From: Oscillospiraceae bacterium
Lineage (GTDB): Bacteria > Bacillota > Clostridia > Oscillospirales > CAG-272
Direction of reading: 5' to 3'
Assembly (NCBI GenBank): GCA_015065065.1
Contig: SVQX01000022.1
Span: 1-32,899, forward strand
Length of the DNA: 32,899 nucleotides
This document shows positions 7,096 through 32,899 of the stretch, in pieces. A program made the translations under genes and the position numbers. The notes beneath the pieces were generated by a model, which was not told the origin of the DNA, searched no databases, and was given only the letters and a program-made list of their open reading frames with translations. Numbering within the stretch: position 1 is the first letter of the stretch; each line of letters opens with the position of its first letter.

Positions 7096-8829
7096 TTATA
7101 TTTTTTCGGTTTTTCTAAGACAGATAAGTCCAAACGCGCTACCCAGCACGTGCTTTACTGCCGCAGTGAGCTTTATTCTTGAAGCCCGCAGCTCGGGAGT
7201 ATCCGCGTTGTTTATCGGGCACTCGTGATAGAAGCGGTTAAATGCAGTTGCAATATCAAGAATGTAGCGAGTGATGACAGACGGCTCGTAGTCGCGGATG
7301 GCAACTCTCACCTTTTCCTCAAACTGCGAAAGCGTTACGGCAAGAGCCTTTTCCTCGGGAGTGCTTATAGTAACCTCGCCCGCAGGAATATCGCCTGCCT
7401 TTTCAAGGATCGAACAAGCGCGCGCGTAGGTATACTGAACGTACGGGCCCGTATTTCCGTCAAAGGAGAGCGCCTCCTCCATGTTGAAGTTGATATCCTT
7501 GATACGGTTATTGGAGAGATAGTAGAACACGATAGCTCCGACGCCGACAGCCTCGGCAATATCGTATCTGCCCTTGAGTGCGGGGTTCTTTTCCTCCATG
7601 ATCTCCGAAACCTTCTCGATAGCCGCGGCAAAGAGGTCCTTTAGCAGCACCACATTACCCGTTCTTGTCGCAAGCTTTGCGCCGTTTACGCTGACAGTAC
7701 CGTAAGGCACGTGGACAAGCTGATCCGCCCACTCGTATCCCATAAGGTCAACTACCTTGAACCACTGTTGGAAATGGAGGATCTGCTGACCGCTTGTGAC
7801 GTAGATAGCCTTATCAAAGCCGTACTCCGCTTTTCTGTAAACAGCCGCCGCGATATCTCTTGTCGGATAAAGGGTTGAGCCGTCGCGCTTGAGTATAAGG
7901 CAGGGCGGCATGCCGTACTGCTCAAGGTCAACGATAGATGCGCCGTCGTCAAGCTTCAACAGTCCCTTATCTCTCAGCTTTTGCACCTCTGCTGGCATTT
8001 TGTCAGTATAGAAGGACTCGCCCTTGTAGCTGTCGAATGTGATATCAAGCTGCTTGTAGGTCTTTTCGTATTCCTCAAGGCTTATCTTAACAAACCAACG
8101 CCAAAGTGCAAGATTTTCCTCGTCGCCTGTCTCCATCTTGTGGAACTCGGCTCTCGCCTTCTCTGCAAGCTCGGGGCTGGGGGCTATGCCCTGCTCCTCA
8201 TTTCCGCTAATAGCGTTGTTTATGCGGACGTAAAGGCTGACAAGCTCGTCGATTCCGCCCTTTTCGATCAGCTCCTTATTACCCCACATACGGTAGGCAA
8301 GAACCAGCTTTCCAAACTGCGTTCCCCAGTCGCCGAGGTAGTTAATACCCACGCACTTATAGCCTGCAAATTCATGCAGCTTTTTGAGCGAGTGACCGAT
8401 AACCGTCGTTCCGAGGTGTCCGATATGGAAAGGCTTTGCGACGTTGGGGGAGGAATAGTCAAGCACCACCGTCTTGCCCTTGCCAAAATCGGGCGCGCCG
8501 TAATTTTCCTTTTTATCAAGTATTTCGGGAATCACTGCGGACGCGAGATAATCCCTTGCAATGTAAATATTAAGATAGCCGTTGACTGCCTGCGCCGAGT
8601 CAATGCAGTCATCACTCATTTCGGGCACAAGCGTCTGCGCTATCTGCACGGGCGAGCGGCGGAGCGCCTTGGAAAGCTTAAAGCAAGGGAGTGCCAAGTC
8701 GCCCATACTGCTATCGGGGGGATATTCCAGCATTCCTGCAAGCTCGTCGGCTGTTATCTGACATTCGGCAGAGATGTTTTTTATCCCGCACAAAAGCTTA
8801 TCGGCAATCAAGGATTTGATTTTCAGCAT
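7096..8829 (-). CDS. argS: Arginyl-tRNA synthetase
   Basis: DYSSPNVAKPFHIGHLGTTVIGHSL (HIGH region), GDWGTQFGKL, DFNMEEALSFDGNTGPYVQYTYARACSI. Confidence 0.96.
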   Translation of the reverse strand: MLKIKSLIADKLLCGIKNISAECQITADELAGMLEYPPDSSMGDLALPCFKLSKALRRSPVQIAQTLVPEMSDDCIDSAQAVNGYLNIYIARDYLASAVIPEILDKKENYGAPDFGKGKTVVLDYSSPNVAKPFHIGHLGTTVIGHSLKKLHEFAGYKCVGINYLGDWGTQFGKLVLAYRMWGNKELIEKGGIDELVSLYVRINNAISGNEEQGIAPSPELAEKARAEFHKMETGDEENLALWRWFVKISLEEYEKTYKQLDITFDSYKGESFYTDKMPAEVQKLRDKGLLKLDDGASIVDLEQYGMPPCLILKRDGSTLYPTRDIAAAVYRKAEYGFDKAIYVTSGQQILHFQQWFKVVDLMGYEWADQLVHVPYGTVSVNGAKLATRTGNVVLLKDLFAAAIEKVSEIMEEKNPALKGRYDIAEAVGVGAIVFYYLSNNRIKDINFNMEEALSFDGNTGPYVQYTYARACSILEKAGDIPAGEVTISTPEEKALAVTLSQFEEKVRVAIRDYEPSVITRYILDIATAFNRFYHECPINNADTPELRASRIKLTAAVKHVLGSAFGLICLRKTEKI

Positions 8830-8951
8830 TTGTCTATATTCCTTTCAAACTTATATTGCACACAATGTTATATTTTAGCACATCTTGGCGGTAATTTCAA
8901 CAGTTTTTTGAAATTTAAGGTATTTATCAGCAAAATTATTTTCGTATTTCA

Positions 8952-10655
8952 TTATCTCTCGGAAATAAGCTCACGGGCGGCGGCGCGCTGTGCGTCGCTG
9001 ACGTCAAGACCGCCGAGAATTCGCGCGATCTCCTCTACCCTCTCATCCTCCGACAGTCGGCGCACGGAGGTATGGGCGCGTCCGCCCTCCTCGCGCTTTT
9101 CAATGAGGTAATGTGCGTCGGCAAGTGAGGCTATTTGCGCGGAATGAGTTACGCATATAACCTGCGAAAAGTCCTTGCTTTGCAATGAAATATCGCGAAG
9201 CTTAATACCGACCTTTCGCGATGTGCGTCCGGAAATTCCCGTATCCACCTCGTCGTAAATGGAGGCGTACATGCCGTACTTATCGTTAAGCACACTGCGC
9301 AGTGCCAGCATTATTCGGGAAAGCTCACCGCCCGACGCTATTTTAGTCATGGGTGCAGGTGGCTCGCCCGGGTTGGCGGAAACGAGAAATTCCACGTCAT
9401 CAACGCCGTCAGATGTAAATCTGCCTGTGGGCTTTACGGAAATTTCAAATCTTACCTTGGGCATATCAAGGAAGGTTAACGACTCGCGTATCTTCTCCGC
9501 AAGCTCAACCGCCGTACTGCGACGGCGTGCGGTAAGCTTACCTCCGACGACACAAAGCTCGGCTTCTGCCCTCTTGATATTTTTCGTGTATTCAGTGATC
9601 CGCTCGTCGGCTGAGTCTATCTCGTCAAGGCGCTGCGCCGCTCGATCACGGAAAGCAAGTATCTCGGCAATATCCGCTCCGTACTTACGGCTGAGGCGAT
9701 TTATTGTATCCAAACGACCTTCGATCTTGTCGATAAGTGCCGTGGAATCGGCAGACACGTCAAAATCGTCATCGCCCGCAAAGGATCTTACGGCTTCGGA
9801 TATATCGATAAGCTCATATTTCACCTGTGTCAGGCGCTCTATAACGCTTTCACATTCCGGGATAACGTCAAACTCTGCAAGCTGCTCGGCGGCAGATACA
9901 GCACGCTCTACAAGCTCCTTTGCATTGACTCTATCACTGTCGGTCAATGCCTTAGTGACTATCCTGACACCCTTATTTATCTTTTCCTGATGTAAAAGGC
10001 GATCCCGTTGTGCCGTCAGCTTCTCCTCCTCGCCCACCTTCAAGCGTGCGCTGTCTATATCGTTTATCTGATATTCCAGCATTTCACGCAAACGGAGCCG
10101 CTCGGATTCATCCTGCATAAGACCGTTTAGCTTTTCCTCGGCAGATCTCCACTGCGAATAAAGCACTCCGTACTCGGCAAGCAGATCGTCGCAATCGGCA
10201 TACGCATCAAGCGATTTCAAATGCCAAGTCTTTTGCATTATCTCCCTATTGTCGTTCTGACCGTGGATATTTACCAGCAGACCGCCTACCTCGCGCAAAA
10301 GCGACACCGTGACTGTTCTGCCGTTTATCCTTGCCGTAGAACGACCGTCGGACGTGATGCGGCGTTCAAGCATTATCTCACCGCCGTCTTCCTCACAAAC
10401 GGTTATGCCAAGCTCTGAAAGTCCCTCGCTCGCCACGCTGCCCACGTTACAAAAGACAGCGCTGACAAGAGCGTAACTTTCCCCTGCGCGAACAAGCTCC
10501 TTTGAAAGCCGTCCACCCAAGAGCAGGGCGATACTGTCAACGAGAATGGATTTTCCTGCTCCCGTTTCGCCCGTCAGCACGCAAAAGCCGCTCGCAAGGT
10601 CGATATCTGCGGACTTGATGGTTGCAATATTTTCAACGTGCAGCGAGGATATCAT
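8952..10655 (-). CDS. recN: DNA repair protein RecN
   Basis: MISSLHVENIATIKSADIDLASGFCVLTGETGAGKSILVDSIALLLGGR; C-terminal MTKIASGGELSRIMLALRSVL, IYDEVDTGISGRTSRKVG, VICVTHSAQIASLAD. Confidence 0.96.
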   Translation of the reverse strand: MISSLHVENIATIKSADIDLASGFCVLTGETGAGKSILVDSIALLLGGRLSKELVRAGESYALVSAVFCNVGSVASEGLSELGITVCEEDGGEIMLERRITSDGRSTARINGRTVTVSLLREVGGLLVNIHGQNDNREIMQKTWHLKSLDAYADCDDLLAEYGVLYSQWRSAEEKLNGLMQDESERLRLREMLEYQINDIDSARLKVGEEEKLTAQRDRLLHQEKINKGVRIVTKALTDSDRVNAKELVERAVSAAEQLAEFDVIPECESVIERLTQVKYELIDISEAVRSFAGDDDFDVSADSTALIDKIEGRLDTINRLSRKYGADIAEILAFRDRAAQRLDEIDSADERITEYTKNIKRAEAELCVVGGKLTARRRSTAVELAEKIRESLTFLDMPKVRFEISVKPTGRFTSDGVDDVEFLVSANPGEPPAPMTKIASGGELSRIMLALRSVLNDKYGMYASIYDEVDTGISGRTSRKVGIKLRDISLQSKDFSQVICVTHSAQIASLADAHYLIEKREEGGRAHTSVRRLSEDERVEEIARILGGLDVSDAQRAAARELISER

Positions 10656-17588: not shown

Positions 17589-17672
17589 TAGTAGTAACCG
17601 TGTGCATTTTGGCACAATTCAGACGCGGCGACAACGCCGTAATTTATCTGAGAAAAGGAGTTGGGAGTCCAA

Positions 17673-19085
17673 ATGGACGGGGATAGTACGTTACTTTTGA
17701 TTTTTATAGTCTGCGTTGCCCTCAGCGCGTTCTTTTCTTCATCTGAAAGCAGCTTTGCTACAATGAACAAGATACGCATCAAGCAGAAGGCCGACGACGG
17801 CAATAAAAAAGCAAAAAACGCGCTTTTTATTTCAAACAATTACGACAAGGCGATCACTACCTTGCTTATCGGCAACAATATCGTTAACATTGCCGCTTCC
17901 TCGGTAGCGACCATCTTTGCGCTGAAGCTGTTCAAGCAATATACAAGCCTTGGCGATCAAACCGCAAATCTGCTCACTACGGTTATTACTACCGTCATCA
18001 TCTTCATTTTCGCCGAAATGATACCCAAGAGCTACGCCATTGACAAGAGTGAAACGGTTGCGCTTCGCAATTCCGCGCCCATGCGCTTTCTTATGAAACT
18101 TTTGCGCCCCTTCACCTTTGTTTTCAACGGTATTACCACTCTTGTATCCAAGCTCTTTAAGGCTGAAAGCCTCCCCACCATTACGGAGGACGAGCTTAAG
18201 GATATTATCACCACTGCCGAGGAAGAGGGTGTTATGGACGAGGAGCAAAGCGATCTTTTGATGTCTGCAATTCAATTTTCGGGCACTACTGCCGCTAACG
18301 TAATGACTGCAAGAGATCAGATGATTGCCATCAGCGCGGATATCTCCCGCGAGGATCTGCTCGCTCTTATCCAGACCGCAAACCACTCCCGTCTGCCCGT
18401 TTACGAGGGCGATATCGACCACATTATCGGCTATTTACAGACACGCACGTATCTGCGTGCTTACCTCAAGGATGAGGACGTGAGCATCCGCGATATTCTT
18501 ATTCCTCCCTTTTTCGTAAGTCCCGACGCAAAGATCGACGATCTGCTGACGGTAATGCGCCAGCATAAATTTTACATGGCTGTGGTCAGCGAGACCTGCG
18601 GAGGCGAGGATAATGACGGTGCGGACACCGTTGAGTCGGATGTTGCTCCATGCGAGCACACCCTCGGCATCGTCACGATTGAGGACTTCCTTGAGGAGCT
18701 TGTGGGCGATATATGGGATGAGTCCGATGAGATCGACCACACGTTTACCAAGCTTGGCGGTAACAAGTACAAAATAGATACTCACCTTACCGTGGCAGAG
18801 GCATTCGCACGTATGAATTGCCCCGAGCCCGAGGCGAGAATTGCAAAGATCCCGCTCCTTGCATGGATCGTGCAGGAATTTAAGCACATTCCCGAGCTTG
18901 ACGAATCCTTTGAATATGGTAACATGGAGATCACCGTTGACGAGATCGACGGTCACCGTGTAAGCTATATTACAATCAAGATCGACGTTTCCTCCCCTGC
19001 TGCGGAGGACGAGGCGGATGAGGAAAAGGCTTCCGATACCCCCGCTGACAGCGACGAAAAAGCTGATAAGGAGGTGTCGGTATGA
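17673..19085 (+). CDS. CNNM/CorC (HlyC-type hemolysin) family transporter, paralogue 1
   Basis: LSAFFSSSESSFATMNKIRIKQKA, LLIGNNIVNIAASS, TEDELKDIITTAEEEGVMDEEQSDLL, CBS pair, LGIVTIEDFLEELVGDIWDESDEI, CorC-HlyC C-domain. ORF track starts at TTG 17661; ATG 17673 preferred. Confidence 0.92.
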   Translation: MDGDSTLLLIFIVCVALSAFFSSSESSFATMNKIRIKQKADDGNKKAKNALFISNNYDKAITTLLIGNNIVNIAASSVATIFALKLFKQYTSLGDQTANLLTTVITTVIIFIFAEMIPKSYAIDKSETVALRNSAPMRFLMKLLRPFTFVFNGITTLVSKLFKAESLPTITEDELKDIITTAEEEGVMDEEQSDLLMSAIQFSGTTAANVMTARDQMIAISADISREDLLALIQTANHSRLPVYEGDIDHIIGYLQTRTYLRAYLKDEDVSIRDILIPPFFVSPDAKIDDLLTVMRQHKFYMAVVSETCGGEDNDGADTVESDVAPCEHTLGIVTIEDFLEELVGDIWDESDEIDHTFTKLGGNKYKIDTHLTVAEAFARMNCPEPEARIAKIPLLAWIVQEFKHIPELDESFEYGNMEITVDEIDGHRVSYITIKIDVSSPAAEDEADEEKASDTPADSDEKADKEVSV

Positions 19086-25300: not shown

Positions 25301-25769
25301 ATTTTCTTTTTTTCTCGAAGAACGTGCGGAGCAGCTCACGGCACTCGTCGGCAAGCAAGCCACCCTCTACCTCGGTCGACGTGCGGCTGCTTGGATTTCG
25401 GTGTATGCACCACACGCTTCCCATTCCGCCTGCGACAGTATCCTTTGCGCCGTAGACAACGCGGGATATACGGGAATTGATCACGGCACCCGCACACATG
25501 GGACAGGGCTCAAGGGTGACGTACAGCGTACATCCTTCAAGTCGCCAGCCGCCCAAAGCCTTACAAGCAGTGTCGATTGCACTAATCTCGGCGTGTCCAA
25601 GTGCATTTCCCAACGCTTCGCGTGTGTTGTACCCCTCAGCAATTATCTCGCCGTCACGGGCAATTACAGCGCCCACAGGAACATCTCCGCGCTCCCCTGC
25701 CAAAGCCGCAAGCTTCAGCGCGCGTCTCATAAATTCAATGTCGCTCGTCTTTTTTGTTTGATCTTCCAT
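25299..25769 (-). CDS. tadA: tRNA-specific adenosine deaminase TadA
   Basis: DVPVGAVIARDGEIIAEGYN, GHAEISAID, YVTLEPCPMCAGAVINSRISRVVYGAKD. Confidence 0.93.
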   Translation of the reverse strand: MEDQTKKTSDIEFMRRALKLAALAGERGDVPVGAVIARDGEIIAEGYNTREALGNALGHAEISAIDTACKALGGWRLEGCTLYVTLEPCPMCAGAVINSRISRVVYGAKDTVAGGMGSVWCIHRNPSSRTSTEVEGGLLADECRELLRTFFEKKRK

Positions 25770-25791
25770 TTTCGTTCCGCCTTTACAGAAA

Positions 25792-25817
25792 TCGGGGAGA
25801 AGCTAACCTCTCCCCGA
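25792..25817 (-). terminator. Hairpin downstream of tsf
   Basis: TCGGGGAGA - AGCTAACC - TCTCCCCGA, 9-bp stem; weak T-tract on the minus strand. Confidence 0.6.
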
Positions 25818-25837
25818 ATCTTTATTTTAGAAATAAA

Positions 25838-26767
25838 TTACTTATTTCCGCCTGCAAGCTTCTCGATCTCGGCAGCGAAGTCCTCTTCCTTCTTCTGGAT
25901 GCCCTCGCCCTTCTCAAAGCGGCAGATCTCAACAACTGCGATCTTTCCGCCGAGAGCCTTTGCGGTGTTCTCGATATACTTGCCTACCTTCATATCGTCT
26001 TCCTTAACGTAGCCCATATCTACAAGGCAGTTTGCCTCGTAGTACTTGCCAAGCTTACCCATTACGATACCCTCAAGTACCTTCTCGGGCTTGCCTGCCA
26101 TCTTGGGATCGTTAGCGAGCTGAGTCTTGATGATCTCCTTCTCAGCCTCGATAACGGATGCGGGAACGTTCTCGCGGGCGATATACGGTGTGGGATATGC
26201 GCCTATCTGGAGAGCGATATTCTTTGCAAACTCTGCAAAGCCGTCCTTATCGGCAACGTCGGTATCGAACTTTGCGATAACGCCTATAGAGCCTGCGCCG
26301 TGAATGTAGGTGCTGGTGATACCCTCAACTACAACGAAGCGGCGGATGCTGATCTTTTCGCCGATAACGAAGATCATTTCCTTCAGCTTCTCATCAACGG
26401 TAACGGTGCCGTCAACGTACTTACCTGCCAAAAGAGCATCAACGTCAGCGGGCTTGTTAGCGATAATGGTCTGAAGCAGAGCCTTTACGAACTCCTTGAA
26501 CTTCTCGTTCTTTGCAACGAAGTCGGTCTCGGAGTTAACCTCGATCATAGCGGTTACGTTGCCTTCCTTCATGATATCAACGATACCGTCGGCAGCGATA
26601 CGGTTTGCGATCTTGGACTGAGCCTTCAGCTCGCCCTTCTCACGCAGGATCTTAATAGCGGCCTCAACGTCTCCGTCAGCCTCAACAAGTGCCTTCTTGC
26701 ACTCCATCATACCGATACCGGTCTTTGCGCGGAGAGCGGCAACATCCTTAGCAGCAATAGTAGCCAT
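25838..26767 (-). CDS. tsf: Elongation factor Ts
   Basis: AKDVAALRAKTGIGMMECKKALVEADGDVEAAIKILREKG, MIEVNSETDFVAKNEKF. Confidence 0.97.
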   Translation of the reverse strand: MATIAAKDVAALRAKTGIGMMECKKALVEADGDVEAAIKILREKGELKAQSKIANRIAADGIVDIMKEGNVTAMIEVNSETDFVAKNEKFKEFVKALLQTIIANKPADVDALLAGKYVDGTVTVDEKLKEMIFVIGEKISIRRFVVVEGITSTYIHGAGSIGVIAKFDTDVADKDGFAEFAKNIALQIGAYPTPYIARENVPASVIEAEKEIIKTQLANDPKMAGKPEKVLEGIVMGKLGKYYEANCLVDMGYVKEDDMKVGKYIENTAKALGGKIAVVEICRFEKGEGIQKKEEDFAAEIEKLAGGNK

Positions 26768-26791
26768 TTTCGTATTCTCCTTTGTATTTAA

Positions 26792-27532
26792 TTACTCTGC
26801 AGCAACGGTCTCGTCTGCTGCCTCGGGAGCAGTCTCCTCGGTGAGCTGCTCGCCCTGTCTGCCTTCGATGATCGCGTCAGCGATAACGGAGGAGATGAGC
26901 TTGATAGCGCGGATAGCGTCGTCGTTACCGGGGATAACGTAGTCTGCGTCATCAGGATCGCAGTTGGTATCAACGATAGCGATTACGGGGATACCCAGCT
27001 TCTTAGCCTCCAGAACAGCGATATGCTCCTTGTGGGGGTCTACGATAAAGATAGCATCGGGAAGCTTCTCCATAGTCTTGATACCGCCGAGGTTCTTTTC
27101 CAGGTCGAAGATCTCCTTCTGCTTGCCTGCAACTTCCTTCTTGGGAAGCAGCTCAAAGGTTCCGTCCTCCTGCATCTTGTTAAGAGTGTTAAGACGGTTG
27201 ATGGAACGCTTGATGGTCTTGAAGTTGGTCATCATACCGCCGGGCCAACGTACGTTTACATAGTACATGCCGCAACGGGTAGCCTCCTCCTTGATAGCCT
27301 CAGCAGCCTGCTTCTTCGTACCTACGAAGAGGAATGTGCCGCCCTCAGCGGAGAGGTCGCGAACGAAGTTGTAAGCTTCCTCAAACTTCTTAACGGTCTT
27401 CTGCAGGTCAATGATGTAGATACCGTTACGCTCGGTGAAGATGTACTCCTGCATCTTCGGGTTCCAACGTCTGGTGTGGTGTCCGAAATGAACACCTGCT
27501 TCAAGCAGCTGCTTGATGGTGATTACTGACAT
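26792..27532 (-). CDS. rpsB: 30S ribosomal protein S2
   Basis: [46 protein letters not shown]. The true start is 27532 (AAGGAGG SD); the ORF-track extension to 27616 is leader sequence. Confidence 0.96.
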
Positions 27533-27562
27533 TTTCATGTCCTCCTTAAACGGTTTTTCCAC

Positions 27563-27630
27563 CACAGACACCGTTGCAAAATGATCTGGGCACACGCCCC
27601 GACACCGATTTTGCACTGTCCATGTCTGTG
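27563..27630 (-). ncRNA. Structured 5' leader of rpsB, candidate r-protein autoregulatory element
   Basis: Three nested complementary pairs: CACAGAC (27563-27569)/GTCTGTG (27624-27630), TGCAAAAT (27575-27582)/ATTTTGCA (27608-27615), GGGC (27588-27591)/GCCC (27596-27599). Confidence 0.5.
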
Positions 27631-27732: not shown

Positions 27733-28026
27733 TTATTTGAACATTCTGCGTTTTCTCCTCCCCCCGCACTCGCAGGAGCAAAGCTCGTCGGCGGGCAGGC
27801 GGACGAGTATAGTATCGTCGCCGAAGCACTCCACCTTGCACCACGGGATCTTGTACTCCTTGCCCTTTCCGAAGCCGAGCCCGCCCGATTCGCCCGGGAC
27901 AATAATAGATATCAGCTTGCCGTCAGGGACGGACAGCTCAAAATCGCAGGGATAGCCGAGTCTTGCACCGTCGCAAAGATTTATTACCTCCATGGATGCA
28001 AGCTCGGATACAGTTGTACATTTCAT
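27733..28026 (-). CDS. YlmC/YmxH-family (PRC-barrel-like) sporulation-associated protein
   Basis: MKCTTVSELASMEVINLCDGARLGYPCDFELSVPDGKLISIIVPG...YKIPWCKVECFGDDTILVRL; GGAGGTG SD upstream of 28026. Confidence 0.8.
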   Translation of the reverse strand: MKCTTVSELASMEVINLCDGARLGYPCDFELSVPDGKLISIIVPGESGGLGFGKGKEYKIPWCKVECFGDDTILVRLPADELCSCECGGRRKRRMFK

Positions 28027-28101
28027 ATACGCACCTCCAAAATTATTTGGTACAGTATATGATTGCGGCGACGGAAAATTTCTCCGCCGCCACATGGCAA
28101 A

Positions 28102-30843
28102 TCATTTTTCGGTTTTTCGTCTTTTTCTGATAAGTCTTAACGCAACGGCGTAAGCCAACGGTGCAGCCACCGTGGGCAACAGTGATGCGGGCGGCGTACC
28201 GCTTACGATAGCTGCCACCGCCGCGACCACTGTCAGAGCCAGCATAAGAAGCGTAAGAATAGCCGACGCACGGCTGACGGTAGTTCTGCCGCCATGTTCT
28301 CCGCGTCCCCGCCATTTGACGAGCATTGCGTAAACTGCAAGCTGAACGGCAAGCAGTGCCGCAAGAGCCGAGCCAAACAGCTCGTCCAGTGCGCCAAATC
28401 CAAAGGAAAATACGATAAGGAGTGTCAGCACGTAAGACACGAATGCAATTCCGACACACAGCAAATTATCCTTGCACAACAGCAAAATTCCCTGTACATC
28501 GTGTTTGCACAAAGAGGTATTTTTCCCCGTAGCCTCGGTATACTCTGTGGAATCCCCCGCAAGAGCGAGTGAGAGCATAGCCATAGCGTCAAATGCCATT
28601 CCAGAGAGAAGTATTCCGATTCCGCTCATAAGCGAAAGACCAAATATCATTGGCACTGCAACAAGCACGGCTCGCGCCGCCATGGCAGACACGAGATATT
28701 TGATTGAGGCGGTAAGCTTGCGGTCGCATCTTCTTGCGGAACCGTAAGCACGCGCGAGCGAAAGAAATCCTCCGCCCGTTTCGGTAGCTCTGCCGATAAT
28801 GATATCCGCACGACGTAGCATAAGGTCGCACGCTCTGCCGCCGTTTGGATGCGAGTCGGGCGATCCGCCTGCAAGAGCAGGTCTTTGAGGCATACCGACC
28901 TTAGTCCTTCTCTCATAACATTCGGGAGAGCAGGCTACCGCTACGTCGGCGCACGACATAAGTCCAAGGTCATCAAGCTCGTGAGCGATCACTGTGACAC
29001 GTCTGCCGTCACGCTTTAGTTCAAGTATGAAATTATGTATTTCATCACGGTCAACGCCCGCGAAGGCACGCACACCGCAATCTGCAAAATCCTTGATACT
29101 ATTGAATATTTTATCGTCGGTGTTCAAGGCAAGTATACATTCCTCCCTGCGTGATGCGCAAAGCAGAGGGGCGTTTTGATCAAATCCGCACTCGCGAAGC
29201 ACGCGCTGTGCCTCGAAGGATTCGGAATGCTCAAACATAAAAACGCGCACTCCCCTATCCTCAAGTGAGCGGACAGCACCGCCCGTGCGCTTGGAGGTGT
29301 GTCGGGCGTATGCCACAGCACCCTTCAGCTCATTTCCGTCGCCTCCAAGCAAAAACAGCACGCCGAGTCCCTCACGGCTTACTTGATTTACAAAGTTAAT
29401 GTAATTGCTTTTCAGCTCTCCCTCGGGCAAGGAGCGTCTTATCTCGCTGAAATTGTCAGACAGACGCAAGGTCCCCTCCTCACCGCTTTTGTACGCCACA
29501 TGAACCCCTATATCCAACGGAACGGTGCTGTCAAGTCGCAGGCTCAGGCTTTCAAGCTCCGGCTCGCCCCAAGCACAGGTAAGCTCGGACAAAAGCCTTA
29601 TTTCACTTGCCGACATATAAGTATTGAAGCGCCGGCAATTATGTGCGGCGAGATGTAATTTTTCGGCAAAATCCGAAAGGCGGGTGTCATTATCACCCTC
29701 CGACAGCACGTATCTCTCCCCGTCTATCATTATTTGCTCGGGATGCGGGATGCCGTCGTGAACGGCAGACGTACCGATAGCTATAATATCGGTAATCTTT
29801 CCAAGCGTATCAACGCAAGCGCGCGTTTTGACGATACTTGAAGTTCCCGATTCGCCAAGTCGGTAAAGTCCCGTGCGGCAGACAGTATGGCTCACACGGA
29901 CAAGAGCGATAGCTTGCACACCCATCGAAGCCGTGGCAAGTGCTACGCAAGAAAGAATTATACCAAAGAGATCGCTTTTTGAGCTAAGCGTGAGTATGCT
30001 TACAATAAGAAGCGGAATGATACTTACCGCAGACACAAGGCTGTAAACGGAGAAAAATCCGTTGACGCTTCTCACAGCCGCGCTGTCGCGGCTAAGGTGT
30101 GCCGGAAGATGCAAGGGGCGGATTCCCCCGTCCTTTGCTCCCGCGTGAGTATCAAGTCCTACCGCAGTTACCACGGCAACTCCGTAGCCACTTCTCACGA
30201 CGTCGCCCGCGTAAACCATATTATCGGGAGAATTCATCTGTCCCTTCGGAATATCATCGCCGGTTGGCTCTGCGCGCTTTGAGAGCATTACTCTCTCCCC
30301 CGTGAGGTATTCCTCCACCTCAAGCTCGGCGGCGGACAGCAGTCTTGCGTCTGCCGCGGCTATATCTCCCTCAAACAAAATGACGATATCGCCCACGACC
30401 AGCTCTTCCTCGCGGACTCGGTAAAGCTTACCCGAGCGAAGCACGCGCGGCATGGGTGCATCCTTGCGCTGAAGCTCCATATCAAAGGTCTGTGCCTTAC
30501 GTTCAAGCAGGCCGAGGACGATTCCCTCCGCTACGGCAACAAATGCGACTGCCGCGCCAAGAAAAGCCCTCTCAAACAGAATAGCCACAAGTGCTATTGC
30601 AAGTAGAAGCCACAAAAGCGGATATGAAAACATTTCGCCCATGCATACGGACGCGCTTTTTCCGTGGATAGAAAACAGTCTGCCCCCCGTGCGCCTTGAG
30701 CGTCTTGTACTCGCCTCGCGGTGAGTAAGTCCCGCCGATGCGTTTGTACCGTAAAACTCCTCCAGCTCCTCAACACTCATTCGGCAAAGCTCGGATGCGC
30801 TTATATCCACGTCGGTATATTGGGGACGCTTTTCGGTTGCCAT
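28102..30843 (-). CDS. P-type cation-ATPase homologue with degenerate catalytic motifs (candidate pseudo-ATPase)
   Basis: 913 aa. P-type architecture: N-terminal TM hairpin, A-domain VGDIVILFEGDIAAADARLL...LTGERVML, M4 region, TLGKITDII, C-terminal TM bundle. DKTGT is IGTSA and GDGVND is AHELDD. Confidence 0.82.
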   Translation of the reverse strand: MATEKRPQYTDVDISASELCRMSVEELEEFYGTNASAGLTHREASTRRSRRTGGRLFSIHGKSASVCMGEMFSYPLLWLLLAIALVAILFERAFLGAAVAFVAVAEGIVLGLLERKAQTFDMELQRKDAPMPRVLRSGKLYRVREEELVVGDIVILFEGDIAAADARLLSAAELEVEEYLTGERVMLSKRAEPTGDDIPKGQMNSPDNMVYAGDVVRSGYGVAVVTAVGLDTHAGAKDGGIRPLHLPAHLSRDSAAVRSVNGFFSVYSLVSAVSIIPLLIVSILTLSSKSDLFGIILSCVALATASMGVQAIALVRVSHTVCRTGLYRLGESGTSSIVKTRACVDTLGKITDIIAIGTSAVHDGIPHPEQIMIDGERYVLSEGDNDTRLSDFAEKLHLAAHNCRRFNTYMSASEIRLLSELTCAWGEPELESLSLRLDSTVPLDIGVHVAYKSGEEGTLRLSDNFSEIRRSLPEGELKSNYINFVNQVSREGLGVLFLLGGDGNELKGAVAYARHTSKRTGGAVRSLEDRGVRVFMFEHSESFEAQRVLRECGFDQNAPLLCASRREECILALNTDDKIFNSIKDFADCGVRAFAGVDRDEIHNFILELKRDGRRVTVIAHELDDLGLMSCADVAVACSPECYERRTKVGMPQRPALAGGSPDSHPNGGRACDLMLRRADIIIGRATETGGGFLSLARAYGSARRCDRKLTASIKYLVSAMAARAVLVAVPMIFGLSLMSGIGILLSGMAFDAMAMLSLALAGDSTEYTEATGKNTSLCKHDVQGILLLCKDNLLCVGIAFVSYVLTLLIVFSFGFGALDELFGSALAALLAVQLAVYAMLVKWRGRGEHGGRTTVSRASAILTLLMLALTVVAAVAAIVSGTPPASLLPTVAAPLAYAVALRLIRKRRKTEK

Positions 30844-30861
30844 AGACAGTCCTTTCTCAAA

Positions 30862-30888
30862 AGCCGCAAAAGAGATTCCTTTGCGGCT
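30862..30888 (-). terminator. Hairpin between the clpC-like gene and the P-type-ATPase-like gene (weak terminator/attenuator?)
   Basis: AGCCGCAAA (30862-30870) / TTTGCGGCT (30880-30888), followed on the minus strand by TTTGAG. Confidence 0.45.
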
Positions 30889-30893
30889 GATGC

Positions 30894-32899
30894 TTATTTA
30901 GTGGTTATTCGAAGTCCATCCGAGTCGGCGTCAAGCAGTATCATGCCAACACCGTTTTTGTATCCCGAAATAATTGCTTCCGCCACGGGGTCCTCCACGT
31001 TGCGCTGGATATATCTGCGCATATTGCGCGCGCCGAATTTGACGGAATAGGACTCCTCGGCAATATGCCTTGCCGCCTCGGGAGTGTATTTGAGGCTGAT
31101 CTGCTTTTCCTCAAGCGACGCCCTCAATTCGTCAAGCATTATAGACGCGATACGTGCAAAATCCTCTCTGCCAAGCGAGCGGAAGGTGATTATCTCATCC
31201 ACTCGGTTGATGAATTCGGGACGCAAAAATCCCGACAGCGCCTTCATTGTCGCGCTCTCCTCCATGGAATGGAGTCCTTCGGAGAATCCGACAACAGCCC
31301 CCGAGCGATCCGAGCCTGCATTTGTGGTCATAACGATCACGGTGTTTTCGAAGTTGACGGTCTTGCCGTGCGCGTCCGTCAATCTTCCGTCGTCGAGTAT
31401 CTGAAGCATTACGTTAAGCACGTCGGGATGTGCCTTCTCTATCTCGTCAAAAAGCACGATGGAGTAAGGACGGCGGCGTATCTTCTCGGTAAGCTGTCCC
31501 GCGTCGTCGTAGCCGACGTAGCCGGGGGGCGAGCCGATAAGTCGGGACACCGATTCGCGACTCATAAATTCCGACATATCAAGTCGCACAAGCGTTTCGG
31601 GCGAGTGGAAAAAATCTGCCGCCAGCGTTTTCACAAGCTCGGTCTTACCCACGCCCGTAGGTCCTGCGAATATAAAGGACACAGGCTTTTTCTTATAGCT
31701 CACACCTGCGCGGTTGCGCTTGATGGCTCTTGCGACGGCACTCACCGCCTCGTCCTGACCGACGATACGGCGCTTGATACGCTCCTCCAGCTTATCCACC
31801 TGCTCAAACTCATTCTCGGTCACGGTGGTGGCGGGAACACCCGTCCACACCTCTATCACAAGGGCAAGCTCGTCAGCGGTAAGAGTGATGCCGTTACATT
31901 CGGGCTCTATCTCGCCAAGGCGGGCTGACAGCTTCAGCTCCTCTGCCTTGATGGAGGCAAGCTCCTCGTATTTTCTGCGGTCGTCCGCCTCTGCACTCTC
32001 CGCGCTCTCGATAGCCTCTCTTTGCTCCTTGAGGCGAAGCAGCTTGTCGCGTATTTCATAGGATTCGTTAAGCGTTGCGTTTGACAGTGACGCATGTGAC
32101 GCCGCCTCGTCAAGCAGGTCTATCGCCTTGTCCGGCAGATATCTGTCGGTAATGTATCTCTCCGACATGATGACAGCGCGGCGCAACAGCTCCTCGGGAA
32201 TGGATACCGCGTGGAATTCCTCGTAATAATGCTTGATGCCTTTGAGCATTTCCACGGTTTCCTCAAGGGACGGCTCAAGCACCGTAACAGGCTGGAAGCG
32301 TCGCTCAAGTGCCGTATCCTTTTCGATATATTTACGGTATTCCGTCAGGGTAGTCGCGCCGATTATCTGTACCTCGCCGCGAGAGAGTGCGGGCTTCAAG
32401 ATATTCGCCGCGTTAACACTTCCCTCCGAATCTCCCGTTCCGACGATATTATGCACCTCGTCGATAACCAGAATGACGTTTCCCTCAGACTGCACCTCTG
32501 ACAGCAATCCAAGTATACGCGACTCAAACTGTCCTCTGAACTGCGTACCCGCAACGAGTGCCGTCAGATCAACGAGATATACCTCTTTATTTTTCAGCTT
32601 GTACGGCACGTTGCCGTCAGCGATTAGCATAGCAAGAGCCTCCGCGATAGCCGTTTTGCCGACTCCGGGCTCGCCGATAAGACAGGGATTATTCTTTTGG
32701 CGGCGGCAGAGTATCTGTACGACTCTTGCAAGCTCGCGGTCGCGACCTACTATTCTGTCAAGGCGACCGTCACGCGCCATTTGCGTAAGGCAACGGCAAT
32801 AGGTGGTAAGATATTTCAGCTTTTTCTCCTTGCCCTTTGCTCCCTTTTTAGCGCCGCCCTTATTGTTCATACCCTCAAAGGGTACGACATTAGCGCCCA
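30894..32899 (-). CDS. ClpC-type AAA+ unfoldase (5' end beyond the right edge)
   Basis: Two AAA modules: GEPGVGKTAIAEALA / ILVIDEVHNIVGTG and GPTGVGKTELVKTLA / IVLFDEIEKAHPDV; VGF tripeptide; short M-domain. The frame stays open upstream of the M at 32870 (GANVVPFEG-MNNK). Confidence 0.9.
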   Translation of the reverse strand, partial: GANVVPFEGMNNKGGAKKGAKGKEKKLKYLTTYCRCLTQMARDGRLDRIVGRDRELARVVQILCRRQKNNPCLIGEPGVGKTAIAEALAMLIADGNVPYKLKNKEVYLVDLTALVAGTQFRGQFESRILGLLSEVQSEGNVILVIDEVHNIVGTGDSEGSVNAANILKPALSRGEVQIIGATTLTEYRKYIEKDTALERRFQPVTVLEPSLEETVEMLKGIKHYYEEFHAVSIPEELLRRAVIMSERYITDRYLPDKAIDLLDEAASHASLSNATLNESYEIRDKLLRLKEQREAIESAESAEADDRRKYEELASIKAEELKLSARLGEIEPECNGITLTADELALVIEVWTGVPATTVTENEFEQVDKLEERIKRRIVGQDEAVSAVARAIKRNRAGVSYKKKPVSFIFAGPTGVGKTELVKTLAADFFHSPETLVRLDMSEFMSRESVSRLIGSPPGYVGYDDAGQLTEKIRRRPYSIVLFDEIEKAHPDVLNVMLQILDDGRLTDAHGKTVNFENTVIVMTTNAGSDRSGAVVGFSEGLHSMEESATMKALSGFLRPEFINRVDEIITFRSLGREDFARIASIMLDELRASLEEKQISLKYTPEAARHIAEESYSVKFGARNMRRYIQRNVEDPVAEAIISGYKNGVGMILLDADSDGLRITTK

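Follow-up and report, generated by a model that had tools for sequence, protein, structure and literature searches.

Catalytically degenerate P-type ATPase homologues, candidate pseudo-pumps, encoded beside clpE in a clostridial order

P-type ATPases are the textbook example of obligate phospho-cycling pumps. The closest published departures from this pattern that were found are eukaryotic, namely TMEM94 and PfGC-beta. Human TMEM94 is built like a P-type ATPase, with ten helices and A-, P-, and N-like domains, and has no TGES; whether it is an ATP-driven pump is disputed (PMC12134183; contrary claim in PMC13322241). The apicomplexan PfGC-beta contains a degenerate P4-ATPase domain that has lost most signature residues and is attached to a guanylate cyclase (PMC6592433). 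For bacteria, the open-access literature searched yielded no earlier account of a pseudo-P-type-ATPase family, and a term search of a review of open P-type ATPase questions turned up no mention of pseudo-pumps (PMC10654040). With regard to the Hsp100 unfoldases, clpE is described as typically monocistronic, ClpE works in vitro without an adaptor, and its adaptors were left open by the authors, while the ClpC adaptors McsA and McsB offer a precedent for an Hsp100 gene co-organised with adaptor genes (PMC13125188).

The window, which is the whole 32,899-nucleotide stretch analysed, contained a gene at positions 28102 to 30843 coding for a 913-aa protein (P0001). The preliminary description had reported an intact 913-codon frame with a good Shine-Dalgarno sequence; the frame is intact and lies on the minus strand (the plus strand across the same positions has many stops), but the Shine-Dalgarno-like AAAGGA (30850-30855, minus strand) is of moderate strength. 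PF00122 (E1-E2, A domain; E 2.5e-19) was the sole Pfam domain above the cut-off, covering the A (actuator) domain and M3/M4 region (residues 130-308; 29920-30456, minus strand), and Cation_ATPase_N fell just below threshold. The closest solved structures were Listeria LMCA1 and other P2 pumps, matching residues 36-355. The match to canonical pumps extended over the full length on profile-profile comparison (hhalign), in which the core family and the canonical pumps aligned over 856 columns (probability 100, E 4.4e-97). The earlier claim of a full-length P-type ATPase homologue was thereby borne out, and the alignments indicate that P0001 is a P2-type ATPase homologue by descent. Hydropathy fitted a ten-helix topology, and an AlphaFold model built from P0001 and one orthologue alone had a pLDDT of 32. 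Also present in the same genome are an intact pump of the PMR1/SERCA type (L002/L044), separate from P0001, and a more distant P-type ATPase, L003, which has DKTGT.

Compared with the P2A Ca-ATPases (PMR1/SERCA; Listeria LMCA1, PDB 6zhf/9euq; the intact pump L044), P0001 has the same length, domain order and hydrophobic segments, and shares the structural residues of the A domain (GD, GD, AD.R). Unlike them, the family of P0001 is without DKTGT, GDGxND, DPPR, KGA and PEGL, carries Arg or Lys at the M5 Glu771 position, and is linked to clpE. TMEM94 resembles it, by description, in P-type architecture, but is eukaryotic and has a proposed phospho-Asp (D417). PfGC-beta, likewise compared by description, is eukaryotic with its P-type domain fused to a cyclase, whereas P0001 is a separate protein encoded beside an unfoldase gene. 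McsA and McsB are unrelated to it as proteins.

Inspection of the alignment showed what has replaced each catalytic motif (all on the minus strand). The segment DIIAIGTSAVHDG (residues 352-364; 29752-29790) stands in place of VICSDKTGTLTQN. Ile356 aligned with the phosphorylated Asp of active pumps, as had been proposed, but Gly357 fits that position about equally because the loop looks one residue shorter in relatives; the nearest Asp residues are D352 and D363. AHELDD replaces GDGVND (28969-28986), its second acid falling at the SERCA D707 position, SMGVQ replaces the M4 ion-site motif IPEGL (29914-29928), and the KGA motif is absent, all as first described. The loss of DPPR and TGD also stood, in a corrected register: RHTS aligned with DPPR, and EHS, where FEH had been read, with TGD. 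The TGE of the A domain (T181-G182-E183; 30295-30303) is present, but its earlier interpretation as a persisting motif was not upheld across the aligned homologues, in which the column is not conserved, and a 90%-identical orthologue has TAE. The features of active P2A pumps missing from P0001 are the DKTGT Asp, GDGxND, KGA/DPPR/TGD, and PEGL in M4.

A first search covered 295 genomes from the family to which the window's genome belongs (f1) and returned strong matches in 20 other genomes; those matched genes whose full-length frames were read had neither DKTGT nor GDGxN. A profile built from 20 members matched much more widely. A degenerate member was present in about 89 of 148 f1 genomes chosen for their completeness, a manual count of matches that ran beyond model position 480 together with individually checked ones; intact pumps in f1 genomes match the profile over the first ~430 positions only. 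Members were also present in families f16 and f19 of the same order. In total, 55 degenerate homologues were examined (47 from f1, 5 from f19, and 3 from f16), representing three families of one clostridial order. Identity between genera within the group was about 20-30%, pointing to rapid divergence.

None of the 55 homologues had DKTG or DRTG in the alignment, and a single one (L098) had an Asp in the phosphorylation column, in the sequence DREGALT. An Asp stood one column away in 10 of the 47 f1 members, P0001 not being one of them, and a slip of register may account for these. The D703 position was lost in 51/55, and the DPPR, TGD, and K684 positions were eroded. Since similar degeneracy recurs in 55 homologues, chance degeneracy was excluded. 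On Pfam, many relatives showed N-terminal, A-domain, and C-terminal modules, the HAD hydrolase domain was found in 0 of the 20 core members, and it appeared once, weakly, in L098 (6169-8937, plus strand), a possible intermediate in catalytic loss. Apparent GDGxN and DxTGT motifs in L075 and L076 were rejected as matches out of place.

No intact ancestral pump was found at the same locus across the order or the class searched. The best matches outside the clpE-linked group, elsewhere in the class, were intact DKTGT pumps, and the intact pumps of related genomes formed a clade of their own, at other genomic positions. A 63-row tree, for which no root was inferred, placed the intact pumps on one side of a branch (100/100) and all degenerate members on the other. 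This topology fits a single loss of catalysis and is no proof of one, as the degenerate branches are long and the root was not inferred.

The gene was nevertheless clearly constrained. Against the closest (90%-identical) orthologue, dN/dS was 0.119 for the whole gene, 0.074 for the A-domain/M3-M4 region, 0.098 for P/N, and 0.180 for M5-M10, compared with 0.024 for the neighbouring clpE and 0.018 for rpsB, so that the pseudo-ATPase gene evolves faster than its neighbours. Other pairs of family members gave values from 0.05 to 0.28, with dS saturated in several, and the frames of the members examined were open and full length. With its catalytic residues gone by alignment and the gene conserved under selection, P0001 is classed as a predicted pseudoenzyme. 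The earlier proposal of a repurposed pseudoenzyme that is not a pump thus gained support: relatives at the locus with intact DKTGT or GDGVND were not found, the frames were open, and dN/dS stayed between 0.05 and 0.28 across pairs. The roles suggested with it, namely ion or lipid sensor, scaffold, or channel, are candidates.

The most informative functional clue, absent from the preliminary description, was the conserved neighbour. Directly upstream, after a gap of 50 nt, lies a clpE-type Hsp100 gene (30894-32897, minus strand) whose 5' end is missing at the contig end. The features listed for ClpE (PMC13125188) were read from a full-length orthologue (L025), which has the N-terminal CxxC/CxxC, two AAA modules with Walker A motifs, and the VGF ClpP loop; the window copy has no N-terminus. 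Among 48 members found by profile search, 46 had clpE as the immediately preceding gene in the same orientation (tblastn placed 44 within 210 nt, and the ORF map added L040 and L086). In the two exceptions, clpE is 2.0 kb away (L028) or the contig begins 1.9 kb upstream (L027). The pairing recurred in f16 and f19, and clpE was found beside none of the 10 intact pumps checked. Eight further members (L154, L157, L162, L163, L164, L166, L170, and L173) came to light because the region following clpE was inspected, so they add no independent support for linkage. Given that clpE is described as typically monocistronic, it is unusual for it to have a fixed partner downstream. In most families sampled from the order, clpE occurs and the pseudo-ATPase gene does not, so ClpE in general does not need it.

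Several other features of the locus were recorded. A stem-loop in the gap between the two genes (30862-30888, minus strand; about -19 kcal/mol, followed by TTTT) was common to the nearest orthologue only and absent from the other gaps inspected; it is a possible attenuator or processing site and could lower read-through between the genes. Downstream are a ylmC/ymxH-like gene (27733-28095, minus strand) at a distance of 6 nt and rpsB (26792-27616, minus strand), neighbours confined to that part of the family to which the window belongs. A 345-aa frame at 25754-26791 (plus strand) had no Pfam or NCBIfam match, and counterparts with 47-59% identity occur near the locus in several related genomes. 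The same contig carries a CNNM/CorC-type protein with CNNM, CBS, and CorC_HlyC domains (17661-19085, plus strand). In L028, a 630-aa frame on the opposite strand (7451-9340) with no NCBIfam match lies between clpE and the pseudo-ATPase gene. In family f6, similar frames of about 660 aa (L145, 2460-4439; L165, 2495-4471) follow clpE where the pseudo-ATPase would be. One genome (G011) had two clpE/pseudo-ATPase regions (L102 and L103); the two contigs run collinear for 8 kb at 80% DNA identity, which makes mixed strains as likely an explanation as duplication.

Examination of the membrane ion site showed that R724 (M5; 28672-28674, minus strand) takes the place of the SERCA Ca ligand Glu771, and that D752 (M6; 28588-28590, minus strand) corresponds to the SERCA Ca ligand Asp800, which is retained. 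Across f1, the Glu771 position is Arg in 41 and Lys in 5 members, and the same 46/47 carry Asp or Glu in M6. The M4 Glu309 is retained in 36/47 f1 members, P0001 having Val, and the preceding Pro is lost in 53/55 overall. Both the basic M5 residue and the M6 acid are absent from f19 and f16, so the charge pair is not universal. The alignment indicates that in the family of the window the ion site is rewired and not lost, a basic/acidic pair having apparently been built into it.

P0001 is very probably not an active phospho-cycling pump, judging from its aligned residues. An active pump using unconventional chemistry, for example with a nucleophile that has migrated to D363 or, in some relatives, an Asp in or next to the original position, would draw on the invariance of D363 among the core group of 20 members (G364 is almost invariant) and on the D707 position, where an acid (Asp or Glu) is mostly kept among the 55 homologues. 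It would also draw on the f19 members, in which the Lys after the missing Asp and an N-domain motif resembling KGAPE are retained, and on DREGALT in L098. In the wider alignment, however, the D363 column is Asp in just 25/47 of the f1 sequences, f19 has Pro there, and the group-wide erosion of D703, K684, DPPR, and TGD, together with the lack of a HAD hydrolase match in the core members, makes such a pump very improbable. A decaying pseudogene or an assembly artefact would suit the loss of every signature motif and the fast divergence, but decay was rejected, the orthologues being under purifying selection: 55 degenerate homologues exist, dN/dS is 0.12 for the window gene and well below 1 elsewhere, the frames of the members examined are open at full length, and the gene keeps a fixed place beside clpE in a family that reaches about 89/148 f1 genomes. 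This reading is regarded as extremely improbable.

The main rival to a role with ClpE is a pseudo-pump serving ion or lipid homeostasis apart from it, as a passive conduit, an ion or pH sensor, or a regulatory partner of the intact Ca pump, clpE being a mere operon neighbour. The charged residues kept in the f1 ion site (M6 acid 46/47, M5 Arg/Lys 46/47, M4 Glu 36/47) and the intact PMR1/SERCA-type pump in the genome speak for such a role, which is a distinct though doubtful possibility, but it leaves unexplained a clpE linkage that holds across very diverged members in three families, and in P0001 Val stands where the M4 Glu would be.

It is this linkage that favours a ClpE-linked anchor, adaptor, or sensor. 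Because the residues for using ATP are lost, the gene is kept by selection, and it stands beside clpE, the product is probably a membrane-bound helper or sensor. The genomic neighbourhood suggests that the pseudo-ATPase is, on balance, functionally tied to ClpE; that it serves ClpE directly as anchor, adaptor, or sensor is quite possible, with doubt somewhat the stronger. The favoured reading as a whole, a pseudo-pump that works without ATP and serves ClpE as membrane anchor, adaptor, or sensor, is put forward tentatively, at slightly less than even odds. According to it, a clostridial P2-type (calcium-pump-like) ATPase would long ago have lost its phosphorylation chemistry and been retained as an ATP-independent membrane protein, unable to run the Post-Albers cycle. 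The M5 Arg/Lys and the M6 acid would fill the old ion site and lock or tune the membrane domain. The cytoplasmic A/P/N-like domains would bind ClpE made from the upstream gene, so that the pseudo-pump would position or regulate ClpE(P) as its membrane anchor, its adaptor, or a sensor of envelope state. A more specific form, a membrane receptor or adaptor of ClpE-ClpP whose frozen M5/M6 ion site would sense ions, pH, or the state of the membrane, is conceivable but unlikely.

A family that has remained under selection after losing its chemistry would amount to a natural separation-of-function experiment, which may reveal the parts of the P-type architecture that still serve a purpose in the absence of ATP. 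Should the link to ClpE hold, the pseudo-pump would be a candidate membrane partner for this unfoldase, whose gene usually stands alone and which has no known dedicated partner, and the question of bacterial pseudo-pumps would become directly testable.
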